This document shows positions 41,042 through 47,463 of a DNA stretch of 64,000 bases, piece by piece. How positions within the stretch are numbered: the first letter of the stretch is position 1; each line of letters begins with the position of its first letter. Origin of the DNA: Microbacterium sp. MPKO10 (GTDB lineage: Bacteria > Actinomycetota > Actinomycetes > Actinomycetales > Microbacteriaceae). The notes beneath the pieces were generated by a model. It was not told the origin of the DNA and searched no databases. It was given only the letters and a program-made list of their open reading frames with translations. Location of the stretch: assembly GCF_026107415.2 (NCBI RefSeq), contig NZ_JAPCHX010000006.1, positions 124,001-188,000 on the forward strand. Reading direction: 5' to 3'. The translations under genes were made by a program, and so were the position numbers.

Positions 41042-41542
41042 TCAGCTCGCCACTGCGTCGAGTGCCCACGCTGCAATGACATCGTCGAGGTGGGAAACAG
41101 GGCTGTCGGATGCTGTCAGGGGCACCCGCCACGCCAGCTCCACAAGCTCGTCGCTTGGCGTCGCAATGGCATCAGTGACCCGTGCGAAGAAGATGGCCCC
41201 GAGTTCCTCTCGCGGGGGAGCTGTCAGCTCAAAGTACGCATATCCCAAGAGCAGCGGTTGCGGAACGGTGATTCCGGTTTCTTCCTGGAGCTCCCGAGAG
41301 GCGGCGCTCTCAAAGGGCTCGTCATCCTCCACCATTCCGCCGGGCAGCTCCAACGATCGCCGCCACCGATTAAGACCGAAGAGAACCCGATCGGAATGCC
41401 CATCGACGACCACCACGAGTGCCAGTGGACACGGCGTGCGTGCGCTTGCCTCGTTCAGCCCGGCCGAATCGGTGCGCACGACTTCGATAAGCGAGTCTCC
41501 GCGAGCATCAGTGGCGATCGGGGCTGTGGGCATGAGAGCCAT
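41042..41542 (-). CDS. Nudix hydrolase with canonical Nudix box
   Basis: The 166-residue protein has a textbook Nudix box, beginning GGMVEDDEP and ending RELQEETG. Preceding LVVVVDGHSDRVLFGLNRWR is the usual first strand region. The start ATG at 41542 is 17 bases after the stop of the histidine phosphatase; a second ATG three codons later is possible. Its pairing with a histidine phosphatase recalls mycobacterial MutT1, in which both domains are in one protein; here they are separate and in the opposite order. Substrate is not known. Confidence 0.87.
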   Translation of the reverse strand: MALMPTAPIATDARGDSLIEVVRTDSAGLNEASARTPCPLALVVVVDGHSDRVLFGLNRWRRSLELPGGMVEDDEPFESAASRELQEETGITVPQPLLLGYAYFELTAPPREELGAIFFARVTDAIATPSDELVELAWRVPLTASDSPVSHLDDVIAAWALDAVAS

Positions 41543-41559: not shown

Positions 41560-42081
41560 TCACGGCACCGGCACCTCGATCAGGTCGGGCATGGAGAGCG
41601 TGCTCCAGAAGCGGCCGGCCTCTTGGCCCGGTCGCACCACGCCAACGGCGACCAGCCATGCCGTCAGCACCATGCCATGGCTCGCGACGACGATCGACTC
41701 GCCATCGATTGCGTCGATACCTGCCTGAAACCGTGACGCTGCGGCTTTTGGGGTTTCCCAATGCTCGTGGATTGGGTGCGGATGGCCAACGATCCACGCG
41801 AACCGTCGATCGTGAAATCCATCGTCAAACGGCTCACCTGGGCGATTCACTTCCGCGAAGCGGGAATCGACAACGATATTTGTATGCCTACCGACTGCCT
41901 GTTCGAGAGTCTGCCGGGCCTTGAGTTCTGGACTTGATGCGAGGACACCGTTAGCGGGAAGTCGCCCGCATAGCTGCGACGCCGCCGTCGCGCCTTCGTC
42001 GCTTAGCGGCCAGGTGTCAGGAGAACTATCGGGTGACGCGTCGGGCATCGCATGTCGAAGGAGCAAAATTCGACGTGTCAT
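41560..42081 (-). CDS. Histidine phosphatase family protein
   Basis: This 173-residue protein is a SixA/phosphoglycerate-mutase-like phosphatase. The phospho-acceptor motif LLLRHAMPD has the histidine at residue 10. Other family features are PLSDEGATAASQLCGRL, SSPELKARQTLE and the second histidine in VVASHGMVL. Such enzymes remove phosphate from phosphohistidine or small molecules. The ATG start is clear though without a strong ribosome-binding site. It heads a - strand set followed closely by a Nudix gene. Confidence 0.88.
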   Translation of the reverse strand: MTRRILLLRHAMPDASPDSSPDTWPLSDEGATAASQLCGRLPANGVLASSPELKARQTLEQAVGRHTNIVVDSRFAEVNRPGEPFDDGFHDRRFAWIVGHPHPIHEHWETPKAAASRFQAGIDAIDGESIVVASHGMVLTAWLVAVGVVRPGQEAGRFWSTLSMPDLIEVPVP

Positions 42082-42406
42082 GGATTCAGACTAACGAGTA
42101 GGGGAGAGCAACGCTCCTCGCTGGGCGAGATCGCTTAGAGAGGTAGCCCATCCGCGTTGCGGTGTCGCAGGGGACATCAGCCAGGAATTCCATAATGTGA
42201 AAACTGGAGTCGTGTACTAGTTCTGGCGAGGCGAGACAAGGATGCGGACGCGGCAGCCCGCGCGCGGGTGAGTCATCCCACGTAGAGCGGAAAAGGCGGC
42301 GGTTCGCGGTGATTCACTGTGGCGGATGGGCAGTGACGATGGTCGACTGGGGTGTGGCAACTTTGAATCGAGCGGGGCAGTGGCTCCGTTGGCCTCTGAA
42401 AAGTTT

Positions 42407-42434
42407 AGTTGACATAATGTACATTATCAGCATG
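42407..42434 (-). other. dif: Probable chromosome dimer resolution site dif (XerC/XerD target)
   Basis: Read on the minus strand, the 28 bases split into an 11-base arm CATGCTGATAA, a six-base centre TGTACA and an 11-base arm TTATGTCAACT. The inner part ATAATGTACATTAT (42414-42427) is a perfect palindrome. This is the arm-centre-arm layout of dif, where XerC and XerD recombinases resolve chromosome dimers under FtsK control. By my count it agrees with the E. coli dif, as I recall it, at 21 of 28 positions, best in the XerD-type arm (9 of 11) and centre (5 of 6). Genes on both sides point toward it. Confidence 0.82.
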
Positions 42435-42840
42435 CAAGAGCGTGCGCGGGATGGGCGCTGAGGTGCGGCGTTGCTCTCGAGAATGCGCTGCGTGAGGGGG
42501 TCGTGTTGTGGCGGCATCTGTGCTCCGCTGTGCGGCCTCGACTCTGACAGGCGTGCTGTCTCGACGCGTTCGATGTTCGTGCAGGTTGCAGGTCTTCGTC
42601 GGATTGTCCGACTGCGTTTCCCGCTGACTCGTCCATGAGCGCCCATGCTCGCAGCAACGCGTTGGTGCCGTGCGTGTGCGTGTGTGACAGCGTCCTGGCG
42701 TGATGTCAGGTTCGCGACGCTGTGTCGCATAGCGACTGCTCTCTGAGGTGCATCCGCTCAGGCTCAACGCGTGCGTGCGCGACGGAATCGCTGGTCATTG
42801 CTGCCTCGTGCAGATGAGTCACCCCTCCCGGCGGATGGTT

Positions 42841-42858
42841 GATTAATGCATGATAATC
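42841..42858. repeat. Short AT-rich inverted repeat beside the second dif-like site
   Basis: The 18-base segment at 42841-42858 begins GATTA and ends TAATC around an ATGCATGA core. It lies immediately left of the dif-like half site and adds to the AT-rich island. It may be a protein-binding site or chance. Confidence 0.45.
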
Positions 42859-42864
42859 GATATT

Positions 42865-42892
42865 ACTTGACATAATGCGAAGGATATCGGTT
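42865..42892 (-). other. Second dif-like site with one good and one degenerate arm
   Basis: Read on the minus strand, the arm TTATGTCAAGT differs from the dif arm at 42407 by one base, and is in the same orientation. The centre TTCGCA and the other arm AACCGATATCC do not match. The shared eleven bases on the plus strand are TTGACATAATG, at 42409 and 42867. It could be a remnant of a XerC/XerD-mobilised element or a weak accessory site. Confidence 0.5.
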
Positions 42893-43023
42893 CCCAATGC
42901 TCACCCTGGTTATCCACGCGCACGCTTCGTAGGCGGTTCTGCTGGCGGACGATCCATCAAATGAGTGCAAATTGTGCAGTTCTGCGCGAAAGTGGAGGTA
43001 AGCGACGAATTCGAGGAGGAATT

Positions 43024-43626
43024 GTGGCCGACAACGGAACCCGGTGGCTTGTGGATCACACCGCCCTCTCCCCTGCCCAGATCAACGGCATCCGGGCAGC
43101 GTTGATCGTCGGCGGCCTCGCGGCCGTCGTTCTGGGAATCGTCATCTGGGCGTGGCCGAGTGTGACGCTTGTCCTCGTTGCCTGGGCATTCGGGCTCTTC
43201 TTCATCGTGAGCGGGATCGTACGCGGCGTCATCGGCCTCACAGCCTTCGGAGAGACGACGGGCGGCAAGATCCTTGCCGTGGTTCTGGGCATTGCGATGG
43301 TCATTGCCGGAATCCTGATCCTGATCAACCCCGGGTTTGGCATCACCGTACTGGCCACAATCGTCGGGCTTGTGTGGATTGTCGAGGGGGTCGCCGCGTT
43401 GGCGTCATTGCCGACGAGTTCGCTGAAATGGCTCGCCGTTGTGTACGGGGTGCTCAGCATTGTCGGCGGCGTCTTCGTGGTCCTGTCCCCGATCTTCGCA
43501 GCCGGCGTTCTGCTGATTCTGGCCGCGACGATGCTCGTGGTCGGCGGGACAGCGCAGACGCTTGAAGGGATCGTCTTTGCGCGCGGTCGCGATAAGCCGG
43601 TCACCGCGGGATCTTACGACGACTGA
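43024..43626 (+). CDS. HdeD family (DUF308) membrane protein
   Basis: This 200-residue protein has six membrane helices in three pairs separated by short polar turns (for example FGETTGGK and LPTSSLKW), the DUF308/HdeD layout. HdeD of E. coli is linked with acid resistance, but many homologues have no known role. I start it at the GTG at 43024 with GAGGAGGA upstream; the longer frame would extend into the gene-free segment. It is the first gene to the right of the dif-like site and is on +. Confidence 0.85.
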   Translation: MADNGTRWLVDHTALSPAQINGIRAALIVGGLAAVVLGIVIWAWPSVTLVLVAWAFGLFFIVSGIVRGVIGLTAFGETTGGKILAVVLGIAMVIAGILILINPGFGITVLATIVGLVWIVEGVAALASLPTSSLKWLAVVYGVLSIVGGVFVVLSPIFAAGVLLILAATMLVVGGTAQTLEGIVFARGRDKPVTAGSYDD

Positions 43627-45915: not shown

Positions 45916-47463
45916 TCAGCGACCCTGACGTGGCCGCCTGGCACCCGTGCCGGCGGCCACGAGTGCACTGAGGCCAGCAAGCACGATGAACAACTCGATC
46001 TGACCGCCCATTTTTACAGCAGGCGTCTCGCCGCGCATCAGCGGGAGAGTCTGCAGAAGATAGCCCGGCTGATAAGCGGGGATCTCCTGGATCGTCGATC
46101 CGTCGGGAGCAATCATCTGGCTCTCGCCGACCGTTGAGATGTTGACGAGCGCGCGCCCGGTCTCGATGGCGCGCATTCGGGCGATGGCCAACTGCTGCTG
46201 GTTCTCATCCGTCTGGCCGAAATCAGCGTTGTTCGTCTGGGCGAGAATGATCTGCGCACCGCGGTCGACGGTGTCTCTCACCAAACCGTCGTCGACGATG
46301 TCGAAGCAGATGGACACCCCGGCGATCATGCCGTTGATGTTCATCACCGCGTCGCGTGTTCCCGGCGTGTATTCGCGCTGAATCAGCCCGATCAAGTCGG
46401 GCGCGAACGGCTCCCAGAACGATCGGTCGGGAACGTATTCTCCGAACGGCACCGGGCGCACCTTGTCGTAGTAGTCGGCGACACGGCCTTCCTGCAGAAG
46501 AAGCGACGAGTTGTAGTACAGCCCATCGCGCTTCGTGATTGTTCCGGTCAGAATCGGCGCTCCCCCGAGCGACTGACTCAGCAGGTTGAGGGCGACGGCG
46601 GCCGAACTGTCACGCGTCGGATCAAGATCCGAGCCGTTCTCCGGCCACACCAGAAGATCGATGCTGTGGCCGATCACGCCCTGAGTGGCTTTCAGCTGCG
46701 AGACCAGAATGTCGCCCGGTTCGCGTTCATCGAAGTACCCGGCCTTGCCGTTACCCTGTACTGCGGCGATCGTCGTGGTGCCATTCTGCTGTGTGGGCCA
46801 GATGGGGATGATCAGGACGCTGGCGATGAGCCCGACGGGCAGGACCGCGGCCGACAGTTTCAGAGGCCCCGGAGCGATGAGTACCTGCACGATGACCGCG
46901 GTGATGAAGACGATCACGAAGCTCACACCTGAGAGCCCGAGCCACGACACCAGGTCGGCGAATGGACTCTGTGACTGGCTGAGGGCGACGCGTCCCCACG
47001 CAAAACCGCCGTACGGCCACGTCCCTGCGACAACTTCGCGGGCGGTCCAGAGCGCTGCGACGACGGCGGGAACGGCGGCGTACCGACCGGCGGCAGAGGT
47101 CCAGACGCGTGGCCCCCACCGGTATGCGAGAGTGATGAGCATCCCGCCCAGCCCGAAGAACAGTGCTTCGAGCGTCGACAGAGCGGCCCACGGGGCCGGT
47201 CCGAGATAGAGAGTCGCCCAAAAGATGTGGGTGAGATAGAACGACAACCCGGCAATGAAACCCACGAGAAAACCCGTTCCGGCCCGGCGCCCGATCAGCG
47301 TGATGAGAACCATGGCGATGCCGACGAAAGCGAGCGGCCAGATGTCCTTGTCCGGGTACGCCGCGTCGAGGACGGGCCCGGATGCTGCGGCGATAACGAT
47401 CGCGGGAATCAGCGAAAGCAGCGGTTTGTCGCGTTCAGGCTTTCGACGTCGAGTTGAAGACAC
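45916..47463 (-). CDS. lnt: Apolipoprotein N-acyltransferase Lnt
   Basis: Lnt adds the third acyl chain to the N-terminal cysteine of lipoproteins in the outer leaflet of the membrane. The 515-residue protein (GTG start with GAAGGG upstream) has an N-terminal multi-helix membrane part, then a nitrilase-like domain. The catalytic triad regions are visible: E in WPENGSDLD, K in VRPVPFGEYVPD and C in GVSICFDI. A final membrane helix follows near 490. The longer open frame starting in the helicase is not used. It follows the helicase gene by 31 bases. Confidence 0.93.
   Translation of the reverse strand: MSSTRRRKPERDKPLLSLIPAIVIAAASGPVLDAAYPDKDIWPLAFVGIAMVLITLIGRRAGTGFLVGFIAGLSFYLTHIFWATLYLGPAPWAALSTLEALFFGLGGMLITLAYRWGPRVWTSAAGRYAAVPAVVAALWTAREVVAGTWPYGGFAWGRVALSQSQSPFADLVSWLGLSGVSFVIVFITAVIVQVLIAPGPLKLSAAVLPVGLIASVLIIPIWPTQQNGTTTIAAVQGNGKAGYFDEREPGDILVSQLKATQGVIGHSIDLLVWPENGSDLDPTRDSSAAVALNLLSQSLGGAPILTGTITKRDGLYYNSSLLLQEGRVADYYDKVRPVPFGEYVPDRSFWEPFAPDLIGLIQREYTPGTRDAVMNINGMIAGVSICFDIVDDGLVRDTVDRGAQIILAQTNNADFGQTDENQQQLAIARMRAIETGRALVNISTVGESQMIAPDGSTIQEIPAYQPGYLLQTLPLMRGETPAVKMGGQIELFIVLAGLSALVAAGTGARRPRQGR

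Follow-up and report, generated by a model that had tools for sequence, protein, structure and literature searches.

The chromosomal dif site of Microbacterium sp. MPKO10, together with a lone half-site that would be bound by XerD on its XerC side, can be assigned with high probability to one intergenic gap of the 64,000-nucleotide stretch of DNA analysed here (the window). As proposed in a preliminary description of this DNA, 28 bases with an arm-centre-arm structure lie on the minus strand around a TGTACA centre. The site, its parts, and the two adjoining genes, which are given as context only, are as follows.

42407..42434, minus strand: dif site, 28 bp (single copy, core in relatives, polarity reversal around it)
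42424-42434, minus strand: XerC arm of dif
42418-42423, minus strand: centre of dif
42407-42417, minus strand: XerD arm of dif
41560..42081, minus strand: histidine phosphatase superfamily gene (PF00300), adjoining dif and directed away from it
43024..43626, plus strand: DUF308 protein gene, adjoining dif and directed away from it

The minus strand of dif reads CATGCTGATAA-TGTACA-TTATGTCAACT, an 11-6-11 arrangement with partial dyad symmetry, and a perfect 14-base palindrome, ATAATGTACATTAT, is present within the 28 bases, as had been described. The earlier count of 21 of 28 positions identical to E. coli dif was reproduced. The surroundings were also correctly described as gene-free and locally AT-rich: the intergenic gap holding dif is about 0.9 kb long, and the AT content is 68% at 42400-42440 against 41% at 42100-43000. 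The statement that the flanking genes are directed toward dif was wrong; the adjacent pair is divergent, with the PF00300 gene on the minus strand and the DUF308 gene on the plus strand (we picked the start codon of the latter, whose listed open reading frame starts at 42961).

The interpretation of the 28-mer as the chromosomal dif is supported by its uniqueness, its conservation, its nearly invariable single occurrence, its distance from dnaA in complete relatives, and the reversal of a polar motif around it. In the 3.75 Mb draft genome, which was searched as 12 contigs, the 28-mer was found at one place when up to three mismatches were allowed, and its core GATAATNNACATTATGTCAA was likewise found at one place, with no match of the reversed control in either search. 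A search for an equal or better dif elsewhere in the genome, whose presence had been named as a refutation, thus returned no second place within three mismatches. The core was present in 85 of 99 relatives (at most two mismatches) and occurred exactly once in 81 of these 85, with no control matches, in agreement with the expectation of one copy per chromosome; a slightly different core, with one mismatch allowed, was found in 275 of 299 family genomes. Of the 21 single-contig relatives that gave a match, all except G060 and G098, for which an exact length was lacking, were used: in these 19, dif lay at 0.376-0.592 of the chromosome from dnaA. The window genome has dnaA and dif on different contigs, C1 and C6, respectively. 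The XerD gene was identified at C6:533372 by a TIGR02225 match over the curated cut-off, and the gene at C6:64151, a second full-length TIGR02225 match below the cut-off, presumably encodes XerC.

The strongest evidence for dif is the polarity of the heptamer GGGGGAG, whose copies nearest to dif are the following.

41214..41220, plus strand: nearest GGGGGAG left of dif, pointing to dif
46560..46566, minus strand: nearest GGGGGAG right of dif, pointing to dif

All 92 copies in the 324 kb around dif (G000:C6:4001-328000) were directed at dif, 54/54 on the plus strand to its left and 38/38 on the minus strand to its right; within the window these numbers were 17/17 and 7/7. The polarity therefore reverses between 41214 and 46560, an interval that contains dif. 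Within about 2 kb of dif in 174 loci, 566 copies pointed toward dif and one pointed away. The GC-skew switch that had been expected at dif was absent over the approximately 160 kb examined on each side: the skew was slight and predominantly positive to the left and right alike, so that it failed as a dif marker over the same 324 kb in which GGGGGAG reversed without exception. The KOPS sequence of E. coli, GGGNAGGG, was also rejected as a polarity marker, being weak on this contig (plus/minus 13/8 on the left and 5/10 on the right). By analogy with KOPS, GGGGGAG would steer FtsK. The polar motif itself is already known from Corynebacterium, since PMC3350403 reports that, in Corynebacterium resistens, the octamer (T/C)GGGGGAG is strand-biased in the neighbourhood of dif. 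Its near-absolute polarity makes it a simple dif locator for draft genomes of the family where GC skew fails.

That the 28-mer is only a dif-like sequence, with the true dif elsewhere, is hardly conceivable. The lack of a skew switch, the state of the genome as a 12-contig draft, and the occurrence of more than one dif-like site in some relatives would be in line with this idea, but no other place in the genome comes within three mismatches of the 28-mer, and every one of the 92 GGGGGAG copies points at it. The site is thus a real dif and, as a dif, an ordinary one. According to PMC13342612, dif is where FtsK and the Xer proteins act, and the meeting point of the replication forks may differ from it.

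As a separate observation, some relatives carry two to four dif-like sites. Extra sites were noted in G048 on C2, C3, C4, and C5, at G010:C2:47557, and at G029:C4:51898 (loci L064-L067, L075, and L076). The extra sites are on other contigs, perhaps other replicons, and their centres are unlike that of the main dif.

The second component of the locus lies in the same intergenic gap.

42865..42875, minus strand: lone XerD half-site TTATGTCAAGT (sole exact copy in the genome, present in the genus, with side bias and co-variation)
42883..42891, minus strand: XerC-like ACCGATATC, 7 bases before the half-site

The half-site is oriented like dif and lies 458 bp away, on the XerC side of dif. The 11-mer TTATGTCAAGT has one exact copy in the whole genome; allowing one mismatch gave three copies (the half-site, dif, and one about 62 kb off) against nine for the reversed control. 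Four copies of its octamer TTATGTCA are present in the 324 kb: one in dif, one in the half-site, and two at places about 148 kb away, one on each side. The half-site was found in all five genomes of the window genus, 337-458 bp from dif, including G002, whose surrounding sequence does not align with that of the other members. In four of these five genomes, ACCGATATC or ACTGATATC precedes the half-site by 7 bases and, when aligned as an XerC arm, leaves an 8-base centre. Outside the window genus, no conservation of this XerC-like part was found among the half-site genera compared. Beyond the XerD arm of the half-site, at 42840-42865, a stretch similar to TTATCATGC is retained in the genus and resembles an inverted XerC arm; TTATCATGC is exact in G000 and G001 and has one change in G004.

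The comparison was then extended to 174 dif loci of the order; of these, 148, representing 58 genera, belong to the window's family and were chosen among the matches listed, with no random draw. Six further dif-like sites (L065-L067 and L075-L077), distinct from the main one, had been removed, as had repeats of the same places (L001, L037, L078-L080, L081, L092, L104, L108, and L190). Exact octamer matches outside dif were counted within 1450 bp, a distance that the flanks of 4 of the 174 loci did not reach. In the 148 family loci, 43 matches were on the XerC side and one was on the XerD side. The octamer was found in 20 of the 58 genera, and counting by genus gave 20 to 1 for the XerC side; the family loci are related by descent, which one-per-genus counts correct only partly. 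It was present in 6/6 loci of g16, 5/5 of g1, 5/5 of g5, 4/5 of g106, 4/5 of g88, and 3/5 of g20. The half-site was not found in the other 38 genera sampled, and no octamer was near dif in g4, g11, g13, g31, g34, and g35 (six loci each) or in g49 (five loci). A half-site shifted farther out was rejected as an explanation for such cases: in 20 family loci lacking a near half-site, a search to 10 kb gave no match on the XerC side and one on the XerD side. These 20 loci also yield an expectation of 0.53 matches, which rests on loci chosen for having no near match, and permuted octamers are the fairer control. Over the 174 loci, 300 permuted octamers had a mean of 3.2 matches, against 50 for the real octamer, and their matches fell about equally on the two sides (505 to 441). 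The highest of them, ATTATGTC, with 21 matches, overlaps the half-site itself; the next-highest had 13.

The interval between dif and the half-site ranges from 50 to 983 bp. Orientation is looser than side, with 32 octamers oriented as dif and 5 opposite outside g16. No clear degenerate version of the octamer emerged, the best single-base variant being TGATGTCA (7 to 2). Among 23 genomes, 16 of the 21 copies of TTATGTCAAG outside dif lay within 800 bp of it, a count that was not used as a test because the genomes were chosen partly for having the half-site. No clear signal was seen beyond the family: the sides stood at 4 to 2 in the 26 remaining order loci and at 2 to 2 in 31 named actinobacterial loci, several with short flanks. 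All six g16 loci (L031 and L099-L103) carry, as their second element, a complete, inverted dif-like site on the XerC side, 61-62 bp from dif (for example GCTGATAATGCTTCTTATGTCAG in L100), with a centre unlike that of the main dif.

GGGGGAG is also distributed unequally close to dif. In the 148 family loci, the nearest dif-directed copy on the XerD side is 37 bp away, and none of these loci has one within 344 bp on the XerC side. Between dif and the half-site there was no copy in 14,064 bp, against 17 in an equal length outside. A motif-free zone bounded by the half-site would agree with a role in SMC unloading or FtsK arrest but was rejected as not significant, since loci lacking the half-site predict 3.3 copies where none was observed.

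Because the octamer was matched exactly by design, its own identity is uninformative, and only the bases after it count. We therefore compared these bases between each half-site and its own dif, leaving out g16 (6 of the 43 matches). The first base after the octamer was identical in 35 of 37 loci (A/A 18, G/G 15, T/T 2) and in 17 of 19 when one locus per genus was used. The match observed over the following three bases was not equalled in any of 5000 permutations, a result that held when each genus contributed a single locus. The genera have no sequence in common left of the octamer, and there is thus no general XerC arm; an XerD arm is found near dif across genera without an XerC arm, with an XerC-like part in g1 and g16. 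Comparison of species within g1, g5, g106, and g88 gave 67-100% identity for the four bases that follow the octamer, against 18-60% for blocks on the left and 24-46% for blocks from base 16 on. The left side is better kept in g16 (86% just before the octamer) because the element there is a whole inverted dif-like site. Such co-variation would be expected if a single DNA-binding protein reads both dif and the half-site, and it suggests that this protein is XerD.

The half-site resembles a -35 box (TTGACA), and its other strand, which reads TTGACATAA, is about 150 bp before the DUF308 gene in the window. It is, however, very unlikely to be part of the promoter of a neighbouring gene. A -10-like hexamer (at least 4 matches, spacing 15-19) follows 1 of the 43 half-sites and is rarer there than at random places (5.7%), on which ground we rejected this reading. 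Moreover, the half-site departs from the -35 consensus by carrying G where dif does, the exact 11-mer occurs once in the genome, and G002 retains the half-site within unalignable surroundings.

We also regard it as rather improbable that the half-site was left behind as a scar by a now decayed phage or other mobile element that had entered dif through Xer recombination. Elements integrating at dif leave partial sites, as described in PMC3025954 and PMC5357621, and the XerC-like left part kept in the window genus and the inverted site of g16 could be remnants of this kind. However, an interval of 50-983 bp leaves little room for an element. Dif-like sites of phages tend to degenerate in the XerD arm (PMC3025954), whereas the half-site keeps the XerD arm, and it is the XerC arm that is absent across genera. 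One-sidedness in 20 genera and a match to the next base of dif would be unexpected for a scar.

A third alternative, also unlikely, is that the half-site, although a real Xer element, serves as a full second recombination site rather than as a platform for XerD only. The 7-base-spaced ACCGATATC or ACTGATATC in four of five genomes of the window genus and the g16 site, present in all six loci, agree with this alternative, but the other genera share nothing to the left of the octamer, and the short interval would be lost or inverted by recombination with dif. Because of the XerC-like part in the window genus and the inverted dif-like site in g16, some lineages may use the half-site as a second Xer site.

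We infer from the DNA sequences that the half-site is an accessory site to which XerD binds without XerC. At dif itself, the established pathway would apply: XerD would occupy the arm at 42407-42417 and XerC that at 42424-42434. With a dimeric chromosome trapped in the septum, FtsK would follow the polarity of GGGGGAG and pump DNA until the two dif copies meet, and XerCD would then recombine the paired copies. The half-site on the XerC side would belong to the dif module. A machine arriving on that side would otherwise meet XerC first, and a lone XerD site would let XerD come first, so that machinery from the XerC side (SMC for unloading, or FtsK) would meet XerD at the half-site. Tentatively, non-recombining XerD at this place might unload SMC or halt FtsK coming from that arm. 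Equally conjectural is the wider proposal that, in part of the family, the module comprises dif plus an XerD-only site, by which machinery from either arm would meet XerD first. A simple binding platform, rather than an exactly spaced loop with dif, is favoured by the combination of a constant side with a variable distance and two orientations.

In work of 2021, Karaboja reportedly found that XerD unloads SMC at the terminus of B. subtilis. PMC12322038, PMC8357415, and PMC8242196 cite XerD as the factor that unloads SMC at this terminus, and PMC5357621 states that the gamma domain of FtsK activates XerD. In PMC13342612, Hi-C data from further bacteria are interpreted as unloading of SMC at dif itself; if so, unloading would need no separate site. 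The half-site would predict the side of dif on which XerD acts other than by recombination, and its co-variation with dif makes it an 11-base deletion target in an actinobacterium.

As far as our partial coverage of the literature shows, an accessory XerD half-site is undescribed in actinobacteria, and we found no description in it of an XerD half-site beside an actinobacterial dif. The dif/XerCD system of Frankia alni has the same 11-6-11 arrangement and one site per chromosome, and its dif, in the letters quoted in PMC3025954, is identical to that of the window at 24/28 positions; the 28 bases show no notable difference, and the available text of that source makes no mention of a nearby half-site. 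The KOPS/AIMS motifs of C. resistens, as presented in PMC3350403, share the core GGGGGAG and the reversal at dif with the window. Unlike KOPS/AIMS, GGGGGAG in the window has a near-absolute polarity, and its binding by FtsK is putative. The cer site of ColE1 (PMC5357621) also has extra DNA beside the Xer core site, as the window dif does, but that accessory DNA is plasmid-borne and binds ArgR and PepA rather than a lone XerD. Unlike in the B. subtilis case, XerD binding and SMC unloading at the half-site are putative, and the action of XerD apart from recombination at the B. subtilis terminus, as portrayed in the sources cited above, would fit an XerD-only site beside the dif of this family.
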